The notes under the pieces: generated by a model | Seen by the model: only the letters and a program-made list of their open reading frames with translations | What the model was told of the DNA's origin: nothing | The model's database searches: none | DNA from: Blastocatellia bacterium | Lineage (GTDB): Bacteria; Acidobacteriota; Blastocatellia; HR10; J050 | Assembly (NCBI GenBank): GCA_025054955.1 | Contig: JANWZE010000152.1 | Location: 134,419 to 197,112, forward strand | Direction: 5' to 3' | DNA length: 62,694 bases | Shown: piece after piece, positions 26,141 to 33,874 of the stretch | Layout of the letters: the number at the start of each line of letters is the position of its first letter | Position numbering within the stretch: the first letter of the stretch is position 1 | Translations under genes and position numbers: made by a program

Positions 26141-26743
26141 TTAGTGTTTGCCCGGATCAAGCGGGACCCCTTTGCGCGTGGATGTAATGTAGGCTTCCAG
26201 CGCGATCATCTTTTCATCATCCAGCTTCAGCGGGGGTCCTTTCATTGGGTTTTCAATGCACCAGTTGATCATGTCGCGGAGTGTGGCCACCTTTTTCAGT
26301 TGTGTCTGAAATTTGGGATACGTCTCGGGGTGTGTGTTTGCGGCATTGGGGTGACACATGTCGCAGGAGATGCCGATGGTGCCGCCCAACGCTTTCCAGT
26401 CATGAAACAGCTTGTCGCCTTCGGCGATCATGCGTTTTTGTTCGCGTTCCCAGATCATCCGGTCGCGGGCTGTCCATTTGGAGACTTGTTGCGCCTGTTG
26501 TTCAGCATAGGCAGCCATCAACAGGTTGGCCACCTCGCGCGCTTTATCGGGGGGTAGGATTTCGCCTGGACGGACGCCGGCGACTTCCACTGACGTTTGT
26601 CCATCACACAATTGGACGACAAGATCGCCATTGCGGCTCTTCACCTCAGGGTGCGTAGGTGATGTTTGTTGCTGCGCTACGGCGATCAAGACTGTACTGA
26701 AGACAACGGCGAGAATCATTGAGCTTTTGAATCGTTGGTTCAT
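26141..26743 (-). CDS. SoxA-like monoheme c-type cytochrome
   Basis: The 200-residue exported protein has a signal sequence (MNQRFKSSMILAVVFSTVLI, cleavage near AVAQQ) and one heme-attachment motif CDMCH in GGTIGISCDMCHPNAANTHP. The following segment (LRDMINWCIENPMKGPPL) resembles SoxA-family cytochromes and contains an extra cysteine that could act as a ligand. The start at 26743 has GGAGGG upstream. It is the last gene of a leftward run with a metallophosphoesterase (14 bp gap) and a di-heme peroxidase. No other sox gene is nearby, so thiosulfate oxidation is not supported. An electron carrier for the peroxidase is a reasonable guess. Confidence 0.82.
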   Translation of the reverse strand: MNQRFKSSMILAVVFSTVLIAVAQQQTSPTHPEVKSRNGDLVVQLCDGQTSVEVAGVRPGEILPPDKAREVANLLMAAYAEQQAQQVSKWTARDRMIWEREQKRMIAEGDKLFHDWKALGGTIGISCDMCHPNAANTHPETYPKFQTQLKKVATLRDMINWCIENPMKGPPLKLDDEKMIALEAYITSTRKGVPLDPGKH

Positions 26744-26757
26744 GTTGCCCTCCTGAA

Positions 26758-27879
26758 TTAGTAAGATGGGAACACCGGCGCCGGTGGTCGGTGAGTTTTG
26801 CCCCATGAGTCAAGGTAGGCTTTGGCCACAGTCAGCGGGTTGCGGCTCCACAACAGATAATGCTTATCCACATAGCCGCCGCCATACACATCAATTGTGC
26901 CCAGCCCTGCGCCATCGGCTTCGTCAAACGGGTCGGCACGGTCCATCTGGACAGTGAGTTTTGGCAGCCCTTCCGGCGCATACGGCCACGGCCATGCAGT
27001 CGAAAGCATCCCGTGAAAATGAATGTTCCTGATGCGATTGGTTAACATCTGGTGCGTGTGTCCGTGAATGACCGTCACCGATTTGTAAGGGAAGAGCATC
27101 GCCTGAACCGCTTCTGCATCCTCTGTCCAGAAATTCCACGGCCTGTAATACTTGTACAGCGGCGAATGGGAAAAGATGACCAGCGGCGTGGTTTTTGGCA
27201 CCTTGGCCAAATCTTTCTTCAGCCACTCGCGTCCGGCCTCGCCAACTTCAAATCGGCTCTGGATCGGGTTATCTAGCCCGGCCACTGTTAGCATGCGTTC
27301 CATCGGCGTCATGTTGCGTTCGGTCCAGAAATCTTTCTCGTTGACGCTCATCAGCACGATGAAATGAATGCCCTTGTGATCGAACGAATAGTTGGGTGGA
27401 CCGAACAGCTCGATCCACTTCTCTCCCATATCCAGGAACCAATCGTGTTCGCCCACCATCATTTTGACCGGGGCCTTTAGCTCGCTGAGGATCTGTTTGC
27501 CGAGTTCGAGTTCTTTCGGTTGGCCCAACTGTGCCAGGTCGCCGCCAAACAGAACGAAATCCGGCTGCGGGTCCAGCGCGTTGACATCTTTGACCGCGCG
27601 CAGCGCCGCATTGACGAACCGCTCGTTCAACTCGCGCTCGTACAGATGCGTGTCAGAAATGTAAGCGAAGCGGAACGCCGGTTTGTTTTGCGTTGCGGCG
27701 CTGACCACTTCGACAAGCTGAAATGAATGGGGCATGAGCTGCTCAGCCGTTGTGACAGCGGCTGTCATGCTGGCCACTTTGAGGAATGATCGGCGGTCCA
27801 ATCGAGCGACCGCCTGAAAGAAGTCGGCGCGTTCTCGCCGATATTGTTCTTCGCGTTGTTTCCATTTCAAATGCCACAT
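26758..27879 (-). CDS. Tat-exported calcineurin-like metallophosphoesterase
   Basis: The 373-residue protein has a twin-arginine type leader (DRRSFLKVAS at about residues 29-38, then a moderately hydrophobic stretch). The calcineurin-like phosphoesterase motifs follow in order: AYISDTHLYE, FVLFGGDLAQ, MVGEHDW, VIFSHSPLY and VIHGHTHQ. GNHD is replaced by GEHD, a common variant. The start MWHLKWKQREEQYRRERADF has GGGAGG upstream. By family it would be a periplasmic di-metal phosphatase with unknown substrate. It is sandwiched between a cytochrome and a di-heme peroxidase gene, a combination with no obvious shared pathway, which suggests an extracytoplasmic redox or phosphate role. Confidence 0.88.
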   Translation of the reverse strand: MWHLKWKQREEQYRRERADFFQAVARLDRRSFLKVASMTAAVTTAEQLMPHSFQLVEVVSAATQNKPAFRFAYISDTHLYERELNERFVNAALRAVKDVNALDPQPDFVLFGGDLAQLGQPKELELGKQILSELKAPVKMMVGEHDWFLDMGEKWIELFGPPNYSFDHKGIHFIVLMSVNEKDFWTERNMTPMERMLTVAGLDNPIQSRFEVGEAGREWLKKDLAKVPKTTPLVIFSHSPLYKYYRPWNFWTEDAEAVQAMLFPYKSVTVIHGHTHQMLTNRIRNIHFHGMLSTAWPWPYAPEGLPKLTVQMDRADPFDEADGAGLGTIDVYGGGYVDKHYLLWSRNPLTVAKAYLDSWGKTHRPPAPVFPSY

Positions 27880-27965
27880 AGTCGCCTCCCAAAAAGCATG
27901 GGCAGCCGCAGGCCGGCAGCGATCGGTCGTAGTCGTGTCATCCACCGGCCCTGTCGGCTGTCCAC

Positions 27966-29162
27966 TTAAAGTTTTTCTTCTCCCCGCGCCAGTCGCCGCA
28001 CGCGGTCACTGGTCAGGGTTTTGAGAAATTCTTCCAGATCGCTGATTTCAGAGTCTGTCAAATTCAATTTGATGATCCCGCCGTCGAGGTTCGGGTTCGG
28101 CTCGCCGCCTTTATTGTAAAACTCGATCACCTCGCGCAGCGTCTTGAGACTGCCATCATGCATATAGGGTGCGGTCAGCTCAATATCACGCAGGGGTGAT
28201 GTTTTGAATGCGCCCAGATCACGCGGTTGCCGTGTGACCAGGAATCGTCCCAACTCGGAAAAGCCTTCCGTCAACGCCAGCTTATCGAGCGCTTCTTGTG
28301 TGAGCGTGCCTTGTTGAGCCATGCGTTGAATCTGTCGGGTTAGCGCCTCGAAATTCTGCGTCGCTTTCATCCCGATACCGATGTTGTGATATTTGAAGTC
28401 GGTAAAGAAAACCGACGAGGTGTTGAATTCATGGCAGGTGATACAGCGTGCTTTGCCCTTGAACAATTCCCAGCCCCGCTGCGCGGCTGGGCTGATGGCC
28501 TGTTTATCGCCGGCGATGAACCGGTCGAACGGCGCGTCGCCGGAAAGCTGCGTTCGCTCAAACGCAGCAATCGCCTTGACAACGTTGTCAATCGTAATAG
28601 GCCCGCCAAATACTTCACGAAATCGTCTGACGTAGTCGGCGTCCTGTTGAAGTTTGGCCACGACAGCCGCATGTGATGGCATGGCCATCTCCAGCGGGTT
28701 GATCAGCGGTCCCTTGGCTTGTTCTTCCAACGACGAGGCGCGTCCATCCCAGAATTGCTCAACGTTAAACATGGCGTTCAAGATCGTCGGTGAATTTCGC
28801 GCGCCCTTCTTGCCGCCGACACCTTCGGCCACCGGTTTGCCATCAGTGAAGGCCAGCGCCGGGTCATGGCAGGTCGCGCAACTGACCGTGTTATCCACGG
28901 AGAGTCGCTTATCGAAGTAAAGGTCTCTGCCGAGCGCCACCTTGGCTTCGGTGATCGGATTGTCCTCAGGAATAAACATCTCCCACAGATCAGCGGGAAT
29001 CGCCGGCGGCAACGATATGGTGAATTTCTTTGCTTGTATCGCTGGTGATGCAGCGACCCACGTTGGCCGGTTGCCAGAAGCGACCAGGCCAACCAACATC
29101 ACCGCCGTGACACTGAGCAACAGGAATAATTTGATCGCTTGCTTGTACCGTGTCTGCATCAT
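27966..29162 (-). CDS. Di-heme cytochrome c peroxidase (CcpA/MauG family)
   Basis: The 398-residue exported di-heme enzyme has an N-terminal signal segment (LFLLLSVTAVMLVGLVAS) and two CxxCH motifs: VSCATCHDPALAF in the first domain and ARCITCHEFNTS in the second. The conserved framework LGRDLYFDKRLS, NSPTILNAMFN, FWDGRASSLEEQA and LTAPYMHDGSLKTLREVIEFY is present; the Met in the last block is the usual distal ligand region. These enzymes reduce hydrogen peroxide in the periplasm or oxidise protein residues (MauG type). It heads the leftward operon with the phosphoesterase and the monoheme cytochrome, and diverges from the ECF sigma gene 108 bp away. Confidence 0.93.
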   Translation of the reverse strand: MMQTRYKQAIKLFLLLSVTAVMLVGLVASGNRPTWVAASPAIQAKKFTISLPPAIPADLWEMFIPEDNPITEAKVALGRDLYFDKRLSVDNTVSCATCHDPALAFTDGKPVAEGVGGKKGARNSPTILNAMFNVEQFWDGRASSLEEQAKGPLINPLEMAMPSHAAVVAKLQQDADYVRRFREVFGGPITIDNVVKAIAAFERTQLSGDAPFDRFIAGDKQAISPAAQRGWELFKGKARCITCHEFNTSSVFFTDFKYHNIGIGMKATQNFEALTRQIQRMAQQGTLTQEALDKLALTEGFSELGRFLVTRQPRDLGAFKTSPLRDIELTAPYMHDGSLKTLREVIEFYNKGGEPNPNLDGGIIKLNLTDSEISDLEEFLKTLTSDRVRRLARGEEKL

Positions 29163-29270
29163 TGCTTACCTCCTTCATTGAACCATCACCCACAAGCGGC
29201 GGTTTTATTCCCGGCACTGTTCACAAAATTATGATCATGGGGAATAATTGGCTCGTTCACGTGTGATACG

Positions 29271-29870
29271 TTGATGGAAGCAATCATGGTCACGGGGTCG
29301 GCGGTGGACGGGTCGGTGTTAACTGAATTTGAGCGCTCGGCATTGGAGCACTTACAGCCGCTCTATGGTTATGCTATGGCGCTGACCCACAACGCGACTG
29401 ATGCTGAAGATTTAGTGCAGGAGACCTACTTGCGGGCTATTCGCAGCGCGCAGCGGGCGGTCCCGACTGGTGACATGAAGAGTTGGTTATTCACCATCTT
29501 GCGCAATCTGTGGCTCAATCGCCGGCGCCGGCACGTTCACGGACCCGATTTTCTCTCGCTGGAAGGCGAGGTGGCGGAGGCCAACGAGCCTGATTGGTTC
29601 GTGGATGAGCGTCATCGGCCTGATGTGGACTTTGATCGCGCTATGTTGCGGCACGAGCTTCGCGCAGCGCTCGATGATTTGCCCGATATATTTCGTGAGG
29701 TGATTGTGCTCAGGTGTATCGAAGAGTTTAGCTACAGTCAGATTGCGCAGATTCTGAATTGCCCGGCGGGCACGGTCATGTCACGGCTGAGTCGCGCGCG
29801 CGCGGCGCTGCGCCGCCGGCTCGGCGTCTATCTCAGCGACTCATGGTCCTATATGGAGGAACAGCCGTGA
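29271..29870 (+). CDS. ECF RNA polymerase sigma factor
   Basis: The 199-residue group 4 (ECF) sigma factor has region 2 at about residues 30-100 (YGYAMALTHNATDAEDLVQETYLRA) and region 4 at about 130-190 (DLPDIFREVIVLRCIEEFSY and AQILNCPAGTVMSRLSRAR). A roughly 40-residue acidic linker lies between them. The first residues (MMEAIMVTGS) offer several starts (29271, 29274, 29286). Its stop overlaps the anti-sigma start codon (GTGA), so the pair is co-translated. The divergent di-heme peroxidase and the downstream porin/decaheme genes are likely targets by position only. Confidence 0.92.
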   Translation: MMEAIMVTGSAVDGSVLTEFERSALEHLQPLYGYAMALTHNATDAEDLVQETYLRAIRSAQRAVPTGDMKSWLFTILRNLWLNRRRRHVHGPDFLSLEGEVAEANEPDWFVDERHRPDVDFDRAMLRHELRAALDDLPDIFREVIVLRCIEEFSYSQIAQILNCPAGTVMSRLSRARAALRRRLGVYLSDSWSYMEEQP

Positions 29871-30691
29871 ACGAGCATCCAGTTGAACGCATCATGTTCT
29901 ATGTGGACGCCGAATTGCAGGGCGATGAGCGACGAGCCTTTGAGCAGCATGTCAGCCAGTGTCAAAGCTGCCGGGCGATGCTACAGGACCAACTGCGATG
30001 GCAGGCAGCGATTCGTCGCGTGCGGCCGCTCTATCCGGTTCCCGATGAGTTGCGTGCCCGGCTGACCTGCTTATTAACCAATTCACGTCCTTCATCCTGG
30101 AGCCACCGTCGGACGCGCATCGGATTGGCGGCGGCTGCTGTGCTGGTGGCGGCATTGAGCATTGTGCTGTGGTATCGGCCTCCAGCCGCGCCGCCGCCGT
30201 CAAGTTTTGCGCTGGCCGCTGTTGAGGCGCATCAGCGGTACACCCGCCAGCAGTTGCCGTTGGAAATTACCAGCGAATCGCCTGAGACGATTTCCCAGTG
30301 GTTTGTTGGCAAGCTGCCATTCAACGTCAAACTACCCAATTATCCCGAAGGGCCGGGTCAATCCAAGCCGTATCAAATTGTCGGCGCGCGGCTGATGGGC
30401 TTCAATCAAGATTATGTCGCCTACGTGGCCTACCGGTTGCGCAACCGCGCGATTTCATTATTGGTGACAACTCAGAAGGCCGCTCAGCCTTCCGGTGGCG
30501 AACAAATTGCCTGGCAAGGACTCACCTTCCACTTCAACGCCATCAACGGATGGAAGGTACTGACGTGGTCGGATAATGGATTGACTTACGCGCTAGTCTC
30601 TGACTTTGAAGAACGAGGGCAAGCCTCCTGTATTGTCTGCCATCCAGGGCCGCAAGACCAACGCATGTTTGAAGGATTGCGGCTGAAGTAG
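29867..30691 (+). CDS. Membrane anti-sigma factor with C-terminal CxxCH heme motif
   Basis: The 274-residue protein starts at a GTG overlapping the sigma-factor stop. The N-terminus is a zinc anti-sigma domain (H28-x3-C32-x2-C35 in EQHVSQCQSC). One transmembrane helix (about residues 85-103) puts the rest in the periplasm. The sensor domain has the usual ending of this class (NGWKVLTWSDNGLTYALVSD). It then carries an unusual tail ERGQASCIVCHPGPQDQ, where C255-x-x-C258-H259 is a c-type heme attachment motif. By its location between two heme-protein operons it could sense heme, peroxide or periplasmic redox state. The motif is seen directly; heme binding and signalling are inference. Confidence 0.85.
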   Translation: MNEHPVERIMFYVDAELQGDERRAFEQHVSQCQSCRAMLQDQLRWQAAIRRVRPLYPVPDELRARLTCLLTNSRPSSWSHRRTRIGLAAAAVLVAALSIVLWYRPPAAPPPSSFALAAVEAHQRYTRQQLPLEITSESPETISQWFVGKLPFNVKLPNYPEGPGQSKPYQIVGARLMGFNQDYVAYVAYRLRNRAISLLVTTQKAAQPSGGEQIAWQGLTFHFNAINGWKVLTWSDNGLTYALVSDFEERGQASCIVCHPGPQDQRMFEGLRLK

Positions 30692-30697
30692 TCACGC

Positions 30698-32827
30698 TCA
30701 GAACGAGAATCGTAAGCTGGTGGTCAGCAGATGGGCGTGGTAGTCCTGCGCCGTGCGGAACTGCTCATTATAGTCGTAGCGTTGATAATCGAGCCGCAGG
30801 CTCACCGCCCGGTGTAGCGGCACAGCAAGATGCGCATAGGGGCGGTGAAAGCGAATCGGATAGCTGCCCTGCGAGCGCGTCCAACGATACCCAAGCCCGC
30901 TGCGAATTCCTTTCAACAACGTCACGTCGGCGCCGGCGTGCAGCACATCGCTGGTTTCCGTGTAAAGAATCAACGGACGCGCTGCGCCTTCCTGTGTCAG
31001 GTCAATCGTGTTGATATGAGCGGTGATGTGACCCCGTGTGTAGTCAACATCAAAGGCTAACCGCTGGGTCGGGAACCAACTGACCGACAAACCGCTGCTG
31101 CGATTGCGATTTTGGTTGACGTTGGCGCGGCTCGGCTGCGCCAATGAGCGACTTGGTCTGGTCTGATCGCTGATAGCGCCGAAGGCTGTCACTGACCATT
31201 GGTCGGTTGGCTTAAGCTGGAGGCGCAGCCGGCCACGTTGAAAATCGCGCGTATCAACGCGAATGAACTCGGTCAGGTAGCCGCCGTTCTCGTAATCGAG
31301 CGCGACGCGCACTACTCGCCGGAGTCGGTAACTGCCGCCGACGAGCAACGTGTGCGCCGTTTGCATGGCATCCTCGTCGCGCACGCGGTCCAATGAAGGC
31401 AGGCTCGGCCCCGTTATCGAGTCGAAGGCTTGGTCGCGTTGTTGAAAGAGCGCGCGACGATGATTGACGCGATGCCCGGCTCGCACCAGCAGGTTCTTGG
31501 TGAAGGCAAACTCACCCTGCACTTGATTCATGACCGAGCGCAGCGACGTGCGACGATAGGATATTTCTTCGCGCACGACGGGCACGTCCGGCAGATCAGC
31601 ATCCACCAACTGGTCGCGTAGGATGCGCTCGCCAGCAATCACATAATGCGAGCCGCGCAGTATGTGAGTCACAGCAAGCCGCCGGCTCACGTGGATGCGT
31701 AGTGTGCCGTCGCCCACCGTGTACGGCTTGCTCGGCGCGGCGCGGCTGGCCGACAACTCGCTGGCTGCGAAGATGCCGAGATCACGGTTGAAAACCAGCC
31801 CGGTGAAGGCTCGGCTGTAGGTCGCGTCAATTTCCGCATCGCTGTAGTAGAGTCGCCCGTTGAACACGACACGCGGGATTTGATTGGAGACAATAGCCAC
31901 GCGCGTTGTGGGGATCGAGCCGCGAACAAAATCGTTGCGCCGAAGCTGATCAAGGAAGAGTTGGTAGAGATCAAACAGCAACCCAGCATCATTGCCTGCC
32001 GTATAGTCTCGCCGTGTGTGTCCTTCGTCGTTGTTGAAGTCGCGCCAGGCTTGCTCAAAGCTGATGCCCAGTTTCCAGAGGCGGAGGTCAAAGCCGGCGC
32101 GATAATCGTTGACCCGATTTTTCACGTGTCGCCCAATCAAAAATTCATCGCCACCCAGATTGACGGTGGAGAAGGCCGGACCAAACGCGCTGTTGCGAGC
32201 ATAGGCAGCATGCAGTTGAAACCGTTGCGCATTGGGGAAAATCGTCAATCGCGCATTGGACATTCGGCGCGTTGCGTCGCTGCTGTGTTGGCCGAAGGTG
32301 ACGCCCTGCCCGAATAGTGGGTTGGCAAATTCGGGAATGAAATGGAAGTAGTCAATCTTTTGGTAGCGGTACTGAAAGTCATAGGCGAGGTTCTTTTTCA
32401 GATGAACCGTCGCCGTGTTGTATGGCTCGCCGCCCCAGTTGTCGAAGGTGATAGAAAGCCGGTCGAACCAGCGACCACTGCTTTCTGGGGCGCTCAGCTC
32501 GGTCGCGCCATGCAACAGCTTCATGCCGTTGCCCAGGTTGACATGGCTGCGGTAAACATCCTCATTGCCCTGCACATCACGCCAGCGCGCGCCCAACTCA
32601 ATCGTGCTGTTGAACAACAGCCCATTGAGACTCACCGTATCTTGCGCTGGCGCGCTCGCCGAGGCAGCAGCGGGTGAGGGCACTGAGCTGACTCGGCGCG
32701 CTTCGGCGACTTGCGGATTGGCCGGCGGTTGCTCTGCTAGGCCACGAGCGGCGGCGATCATGACGATGATGATCGCGGTCATCCATTGGCTTATCATCCT
32801 GCTTTTGTCATTCATCTTGGTGTTCAT
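30698..32827 (-). CDS. Outer-membrane beta-barrel, MtrB/PioB-like porin
   Basis: The 709-residue protein has a signal sequence (about residues 12-31, ending GLAEQ) and a Pro/Ala-rich segment. The remainder is alternating beta-strands rich in Arg and aromatic residues, ending in a terminal Phe (TTSLRFSF), as outer-membrane barrels do. Length and the partner gene fit the MtrB/PioB family, in which a large barrel sheathes a decaheme cytochrome so electrons can cross the outer membrane. The CxxC seen near the N-terminus of Shewanella MtrB is absent. It lies 12 bp downstream of the decaheme gene on the same strand. Assignment rests on size, barrel features and context. Confidence 0.82.
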   Translation of the reverse strand: MNTKMNDKSRMISQWMTAIIIVMIAAARGLAEQPPANPQVAEARRVSSVPSPAAASASAPAQDTVSLNGLLFNSTIELGARWRDVQGNEDVYRSHVNLGNGMKLLHGATELSAPESSGRWFDRLSITFDNWGGEPYNTATVHLKKNLAYDFQYRYQKIDYFHFIPEFANPLFGQGVTFGQHSSDATRRMSNARLTIFPNAQRFQLHAAYARNSAFGPAFSTVNLGGDEFLIGRHVKNRVNDYRAGFDLRLWKLGISFEQAWRDFNNDEGHTRRDYTAGNDAGLLFDLYQLFLDQLRRNDFVRGSIPTTRVAIVSNQIPRVVFNGRLYYSDAEIDATYSRAFTGLVFNRDLGIFAASELSASRAAPSKPYTVGDGTLRIHVSRRLAVTHILRGSHYVIAGERILRDQLVDADLPDVPVVREEISYRRTSLRSVMNQVQGEFAFTKNLLVRAGHRVNHRRALFQQRDQAFDSITGPSLPSLDRVRDEDAMQTAHTLLVGGSYRLRRVVRVALDYENGGYLTEFIRVDTRDFQRGRLRLQLKPTDQWSVTAFGAISDQTRPSRSLAQPSRANVNQNRNRSSGLSVSWFPTQRLAFDVDYTRGHITAHINTIDLTQEGAARPLILYTETSDVLHAGADVTLLKGIRSGLGYRWTRSQGSYPIRFHRPYAHLAVPLHRAVSLRLDYQRYDYNEQFRTAQDYHAHLLTTSLRFSF

Positions 32828-32839
32828 CGCGCTGCCTTC

Positions 32840-33874
32840 TTACCGGAAGAAGAGTCGGCTTGTATTCGAGCCGTGAATCATCACGTGGCAACTGGTGCAA
32901 TGCTGATACCGAGGGTTCGTCAGGTCATGGATCCCTTGCGGCAAATCACCAGACGCCCCCTGACGGTCGAAGTGACATTCCTGACAAAGCATCCGGACTT
33001 CGCTGCGAATTAAGAGCCGATTGTTAATCGAACCGTGCGGCGTATGACAGGTCAGGCATTGGTCGGCGAGAAACCGGCTCTCATTCAGTTGATTGTGCTC
33101 GAACACGAACGGCCCCTGCTTGTCCGTGTGACAACGCACGCAAATAGAGCTTATGCCGCCGGCCAGCTCGACCGTCTGCGTTCGATTCAGCGAGCCGTGT
33201 TGCTGATGACAATCGCGGCAATCCATGGCGCCTTCAGGGACTTTGTGATGAAACGGACGGGCAAACTCTGCTTTGATTTCGCGGTGGCAGTTGAAGCACA
33301 AGGCTGGAGACTTCTCCCGCAGGATATACGGATGAGTGATTTCCTGATGCGGATTGTGGCAGTCGTGACAGGCCACCACGTCTACGTTGTGCTGGTTCTG
33401 CTGAAAGCCACATTGACCGAGACGTTTTTCTTGGTGACAGCTCGTGCACATGGCCACAACGTCCCTGGCCGCGGCTTTACGTGGATTGAAAATAGCGACC
33501 GGCCCGCCGCCTGCTTCGACGTGTTGTTTGCCCGGTCCGTGACACATTTCGCACCCTTTTGTGGGCGGGATAAACTTCTCGCTTTTGATGGTGGCGAAGT
33601 GCGCTGTGCGTGAGAGCCACTGATACTGGCTGGGATGACAGACCCGACAGGTTTCAGCGCCAACATAGTTTTCCGCTCCGGCCATAGGATTTTGCTCAGT
33701 CGGCCTGGGCGCTTGATCCTCGACAGCGCGTTCGGACGCCCGGGAGGCTGCCGCTTCAGGGCGCGGCTGCGCGTTGCCGGTCAGTGGACTCAGCGAGTGG
33801 CTGAACGTCATCAGGCTGATGGGGAAAAATACGCCCATGGTGATGAGCTTGATGCGAACTCGCCAATGTTTCAT
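32840..33874 (-). CDS. Decaheme c-type cytochrome, MtrA/DmsE-like
   Basis: The 344-residue exported protein has ten CxxCH motifs, in order CRVCH, CEMCH, CTSCH, CHDCH, CFNCH, CRDCH, CVRCH, CLTCH, CQECH and CTSCH, plus several extra histidines placed as distal ligands. The N-terminus is a signal segment (IKLITMGVFFPISLMTFSHS) followed by a roughly 45-residue linker. Ten hemes in about 300 residues and the terminal ...CHVMIHGSN motif are typical of the DmsE/MtrA family, periplasmic wires that plug into an MtrB-type porin. The porin gene follows directly. No outer-surface multiheme cytochrome (MtrC-like) or inner-membrane quinol oxidase is encoded in the window. Confidence 0.93.
   Translation of the reverse strand: MKHWRVRIKLITMGVFFPISLMTFSHSLSPLTGNAQPRPEAAASRASERAVEDQAPRPTEQNPMAGAENYVGAETCRVCHPSQYQWLSRTAHFATIKSEKFIPPTKGCEMCHGPGKQHVEAGGGPVAIFNPRKAAARDVVAMCTSCHQEKRLGQCGFQQNQHNVDVVACHDCHNPHQEITHPYILREKSPALCFNCHREIKAEFARPFHHKVPEGAMDCRDCHQQHGSLNRTQTVELAGGISSICVRCHTDKQGPFVFEHNQLNESRFLADQCLTCHTPHGSINNRLLIRSEVRMLCQECHFDRQGASGDLPQGIHDLTNPRYQHCTSCHVMIHGSNTSRLFFR

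Follow-up and report, generated by a model that had tools for sequence, protein, structure and literature searches.

Organization of the locus

The window, which is the whole stretch of DNA analysed, comprises 62,694 nucleotides of the genome of a Blastocatellia bacterium. An ECF sigma factor gene followed by the gene of a membrane anti-sigma factor lies in it between two operons for heme proteins, a divergent one that starts with a di-heme peroxidase gene and a convergent one that includes a decaheme cytochrome gene (Table 1). This location and the overlap of the two regulatory genes had been described in the initial annotation, and both were confirmed by the family matches of the flanking genes and by the coordinates (the sigma stop codon at 29868-29870 gives an overlap of 4 nt). 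The same holds for the composition of the anti-sigma protein, in which a zinc domain is joined by a single membrane helix to an outer domain with CIVCH near its end. Further in-frame starts of the sigma gene are present upstream at 29271 and 29274, but their use is unlikely, since the -10 element of the sigma gene's own promoter ends at 29268.

Table 1. Genes, protein domains and promoters of the locus, in positions of the window.
Feature	Position	Strand	Evidence and remarks
SoxA/TsdA-like mono-heme cytochrome c	26141..26806	-	PF21342, E 2e-15; start probably inside the ORF
Tat-exported calcineurin-like metallophosphoesterase	26758..27945	-	PF00149, E 2e-17; residues 49-66 form a Tat signal; actual start probably within the ORF
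Di-heme cytochrome c peroxidase/MauG-like protein, first gene of the target operon	27966..29162	-	PF03150, E 8e-60
Divergent promoter of the peroxidase operon, same type	29184..29211	-	GGAATAA-N15-GTGATG; GGAATAAAACCGCCGCTTGTGGGTGATG
ECF-type promoter of the sigma/anti-sigma operon	29241..29268	+	GGAATAA-N15-GTGATA; GGAATAATTGGCTCGTTCACGTGTGATA
ECF sigma factor gene	29286..29870	+	Likely start ATG 29286; Pfam Sigma70_r2, E 8e-16; Sigma70_r4_2, E 1e-15
Anti-sigma factor with C-terminal heme-c motif	29867..30691	+	GTG start; 274 aa
Zinc-binding anti-sigma domain, residues 7-36	29885..29974	+	zf-HC2, E 1.1e-6; H28-x3-C32-x2-C35
Transmembrane helix, residues 82-102	30110..30172	+	AlphaFold2 helix; positive residues (HRRTR) on the N-terminal side
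Predicted outer (periplasmic) sensor domain, residues 113-248	30203..30610	+	AlphaFold2 model; moderate fold match to the RseB C-terminal domain
CIVCH heme-c attachment motif, C255-I-V-C258-H259	30629..30643	+	Residue before the motif is S
DmsE-type decaheme cytochrome (ten CxxCH) and 709-aa protein	30698-33874	-	TIGR03508, 221 bits (cut-off 192); convergent operon downstream

The zinc domain scored 29 bits against zf-HC2 (Pfam cut-off 22.2), and its H28, C32 and C35 are invariant in the alignment of the homologues. Profile comparison with solved structures gave sequence matches to RsiW (E 5e-6) and RsrA (E 1e-5), while the N-terminal part of the structural model resembles RslA (3hug, Z 7.2) and RsiW (5wuq, Z 6.7). 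A sigma factor homologue adjoins the anti-sigma gene in nearly all relatives. By its N-terminal HxxxCxxC domain and its co-encoded ECF sigma factor the protein is assigned to the zinc-type anti-sigma factors, and it is predicted to inhibit the sigma factor.

The AlphaFold2 model contains a single helix of membrane length. The outer domain behind it matched no Pfam or NCBIfam family above the cut-off; in particular, no Pfam match to the RseB/MucB C-terminal domain or to DUF3365 was obtained for the protein, and FecR was absent from its Pfam matches up to E 1. In the fold comparison RseB (2p4b) was first with a Z of only 7.5 (rmsd 2.8, 89 positions aligned), which is below the level that excludes chance, and the matches other than RseB and anti-sigma domains (PsbP, Tsi3, DcrB and others) were middling. 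The modelled resemblance to RseB is moderate and may reflect a common arrangement alone.

Conservation of the C-terminal motif

A search of 98 related genomes in which the motif was not used for selection yielded 18 close full-length homologues, and in the resulting alignment (19 rows including the window) C255, V257, C258 and H259 are invariant. The 84,980 species genomes that were scanned gave 24 named loci, a biased sample as one of the two search patterns contains the motif. The species belong to the Acidobacteriota (Blastocatellia, Pyrinomonadaceae, Vicinamibacteria), to MAGs labelled Deltaproteobacteria or Binatia and, in one case, to a Tectomicrobia MAG. Profile searches in 396 genomes from the phylum and in 198 from another phylum yielded more diverged members, in which the C-x-x-C-H persists in altered surroundings (NNSCPTCHRE, RAACTSCHAD, AEACAVCHVG). 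Every full-length match with E below about 1e-33 in the searches that were not motif-selected carries the tail.

Altogether, the CxxCH is kept in 35 of the 35 distinct tail-bearing relatives of the subfamily that were aligned, down to approx. 30% identity, in Acidobacteriota and in Binatota/Myxococcota-labelled and Tectomicrobia MAGs. Judged from these alignments the tail is not a product of chance, its conservation being far beyond that. The assignment of a c-type heme site to the anti-sigma factor was upheld; the site is conserved and, by the predicted topology, faces outward. The initial annotation had also named homologues lacking the CxxCH as evidence against a heme tail. None was found among the aligned members of the subfamily, but in 11 of 11 more distant homologues the motif is absent and a different, heme-less end segment is present. 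These heme-less proteins retain the zinc domain and the outer domain, and His122 is kept in 10 of the 11. The tree of the outer domain, calculated without the tail, has long branches and gave two changes of state; a single clade was not rejected by the AU test (p 0.18), and the tail may have arisen once or more often.

Proposed heme attachment to the tail

By the predicted topology of the model, the tail is on the outer side of the membrane. The genome of the organism encodes a cytochrome c assembly protein with CcsA-like sequence, and the cytochrome c assembly family PF01578 was detected in all 31 checked genomes that carry the anti-sigma protein. From the motif, its place and this assembly machinery we infer a covalently bound heme on the tail. 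A candidate for the second heme ligand is His222, which 32 of the 35 tail-bearing members retain and all the heme-less ones lack. His122 was considered as a heme-specific ligand and rejected; His222 is the better candidate since His122 is conserved in the heme-less homologues too. The second ligand and the heme pocket could not be placed in the structure, because the prediction for the tail (residues 250-274) in this heme-free model is of low confidence, near 53.

As heme attachment is a prediction, it can be asked whether the CxxCH binds a metal or forms a disulfide instead. We consider this very unlikely, since neither the spacing nor the following His varies, the predicted location of the tail is outside the membrane in organisms that all (as far as checked) have cytochrome c assembly proteins, and heme proteins cluster with the tail-bearing pair, as described below.

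Promoters and proposed target genes

About 110 bp separate the sigma gene from the divergent peroxidase gene, and this gap contains two outward-facing copies of one promoter type. In the whole 4.69-Mb genome GGAATAA-N15-GTGATA was found, within one mismatch, only at these two sites, while the reversed control pattern occurred once. When the window was scored with a weight matrix trained on the other loci, the two promoters took the top two ranks with 22.8 and 15.1 bits, ahead of a site with 11.9. Scores of at least 15 bits in both directions were obtained in 12 of 21 loci, the window included, and 0-2 positions reached that level in a background of 328,068. In these 12 loci the divergent pair has the form GGAATAA-N15-GTKWTW. 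The motif was first spotted by eye in the same regions, so the leave-one-out scores and the held-out loci are the cleaner evidence; both promoters were present in the four loci outside the training set (L103-L106).

Back-to-back GGAATAA-type sites were also seen upstream of a heme-less pair (L046:3097-3124). The promoter type may be common to a wider group of sigma factors, among which cross-talk would be possible.

The decaheme/porin operon was rejected as a target of the sigma factor. Its 709-aa protein has no Pfam match and is probably an MtrB/PioB-type porin. The initial annotation had supposed that the sigma factor acts on this operon, in which case it would be a regulator of extracellular electron transfer. 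Adjacency, which is seen in the window only, would speak for such a role, but the best weight-matrix score at the operon was -2.6, compared with 22.8 and 15.1 for the real sites, and the operon was absent beside every relative examined; we regard this possibility as extremely improbable. Of the co-occurrence with peroxidase or MtrAB-type genes that had been proposed as a check, the peroxidase part stood, while the decaheme/porin part did not. The link to a neighbouring heme-protein operon is borne out for the di-heme peroxidase operon by the shared promoter and by conserved synteny. As read from the promoters and the neighbourhoods, the circuit is more local than had been supposed.

The first protein of this operon is related to both peroxidases and MauG, and its best NCBIfam model, the MbnH family, scored below the cut-off. 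MauG-like proteins are not always peroxide scavengers. The peroxidase, the metallophosphoesterase and the SoxA-like cytochrome occur together beside the pair in ten further loci (L039, L040, L053, L055, L056, L060, L101, L102, L105 and L106), and the latter two in L041, L043, L047, L048 and L050. The peroxidase is found beside the pair in L038 and another di-heme MauG-related protein in L045, L046, L051, L054 and L103. In the very diverged L101 and L102 the peroxidase, metallophosphoesterase and cytochrome genes come directly after the anti-sigma gene. The genome that contains L101 has 3.5 Mb; between this locus and the window the anti-sigma proteins share only about 28-30% identity, yet the peroxidases share 71%. 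In L058 and L104 the place beside the pair is taken by a catalase-peroxidase, KatG. These katG genes (L058:6030-8312, L104:8687-10906) scored above the equivalog cut-offs and stand under the same divergent promoter type, and the N-termini of both proteins, read by eye, look like export signals. Two unrelated types of peroxidase are thus found under one promoter type.

Heme enzymes or cytochromes from this small set are present beside 24 of 35 tail-bearing pairs and 0 of 10 heme-less pairs (Fisher p 1e-4, which is only indicative as related loci are not independent and the stretches differ in length). In about one third of the tail-bearing loci (L042, L044, L049, L052, L057, L059 and L096-L100) no peroxidase or cytochrome neighbour was found in the stretch examined.

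The partner operon at L043:4897-6656 has a SoxY/SoxZ-like fusion and a five-CxxCH cytochrome in addition, and a five-CxxCH gene is also near the pair in L050. Heme-less homologous pairs (L108, L112, L116 and L046:2050-4480) adjoin a paralogue, approx. 33% identical, of the Tat metallophosphoesterase, and no CxxCH protein was found near the pair in L108, L112 and L116. The pairing with a metallophosphoesterase may have preceded the heme tail.

Proposed function

On the basis of the architecture, the conserved CxxCH, the operon partner and the promoter pair, which are read directly from the DNA, we infer the covalent heme, the signal and the steps of sigma release as follows. In the resting state the zinc domain would hold the ECF sigma factor. 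An oxidant reaching the heme would change the state or the ligation of the iron, upon which the outer domain would change its shape or open to proteolysis, and via the membrane helix the sigma factor would be released. Transcription by the free sigma factor would be confined to two units: the operon that encodes it and the divergent one for the di-heme peroxidase, the metallophosphoesterase and the cytochrome c. Removal of the oxidant by the peroxidases would close the loop. The targets favour peroxide or the redox state as the signal, and on sensing one of these in the periplasm the heme-c tail probably frees the sigma factor for the production of periplasmic peroxidases. A more specific form of this proposal, to which we give an even chance, is a new class of one-protein redox sensor: a covalent heme c would have replaced the last segment of the outer domain, and peroxide chemistry at this heme, outside the membrane, would directly control a sigma factor that serves a single divergent operon for periplasmic peroxidases.

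The main competing reading is a checkpoint of cytochrome c maturation, in which the outer domain would be stable with heme, while without heme the free C-terminus would be cut by a periplasmic protease and the sigma factor released. The position of the motif in a short tail near the C-terminus, the low confidence of this part in the heme-free model and the likeness of the modelled outer domain to a part of RseB, which regulates the proteolysis of an anti-sigma factor, fit such a checkpoint, as does L038, where the peroxidase gene is followed by cytochrome c biogenesis genes (CcdA-like and CcsA/CcmF-like). However, biogenesis genes were seen in this one locus only, KatG (L058, L104) is independent of cytochrome c maturation and the recurrent targets are peroxidases, so we hold a checkpoint to be unlikely. 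The targets also bear on the question of NO as the signal, with an operon serving nitrosative stress. Binding of NO is known from heme-c Cache sensors with fused signalling modules, which are not oxygen sensors (PMC12889525), but the neighbouring operons contained no recognisable gene for NO detoxification and, again, it is peroxidases that recur, which makes NO sensing a decidedly unlikely role.

Sensing of peroxide or the redox state, the reading we prefer, can be compared with known regulators. RsiW, RslA, RsrA and ChrR (class I anti-sigma domain) likewise have the HxxxCxxC domain and are encoded right after the ECF sigma gene, and the membrane-bound zinc anti-sigma factors have a single membrane helix like the protein of the window. 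To our knowledge, none of these four carries a heme-c motif at the end of an outer domain, and we know of no heme-c motif in HasS/HxuR. The latter anti-sigma factors share heme-related ECF regulation with the present system but differ in their domains; their response to heme runs through a TonB-dependent receptor (PMC12670364). In comparison with RseA/RseB (MucA/MucB), the outer domain described here appears from its model to be arranged like the RseB C-terminal domain (a moderate fold match without a sequence-family match), whereas RseB itself is a separate heme-free protein that regulates an anti-sigma factor.

A further close parallel is given by the heme-c Cache sensors (DUF3365/Tll0287; Geobacter GSU0582/GSU0935), in which an outer sensor domain has gained a CxxCH and heme-free homologues exist (PMC12889525). 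In both cases an outer domain with a CxxCH signals inward, by prediction in the case of the anti-sigma protein. The Cache sensors, however, have a Cache fold, their motif lies between two strands and they are attached to kinases, chemoreceptors or cyclases, in contrast to the putative RseB-like domain, C-terminal motif and anti-sigma output seen here. Sigma factors are not mentioned in PMC12889525, nor heme or cytochrome in the reviews PMC8103513, PMC8999054 and PMC7406223. In the open-access literature searched, no anti-sigma factor with its own heme-c site was found.

If the proposal is true, sigma/anti-sigma pairs would be a further output of heme-c sensors beside the known chemoreceptors, kinases and cyclases, and the two-promoter circuit would be small enough to be rebuilt in E. 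coli. The heme-bearing and heme-free homologues form a natural test of the acquisition of a cofactor by a sensor domain. For the Acidobacteriota, the anti-sigma factor would be a candidate for periplasmic peroxide sensing.
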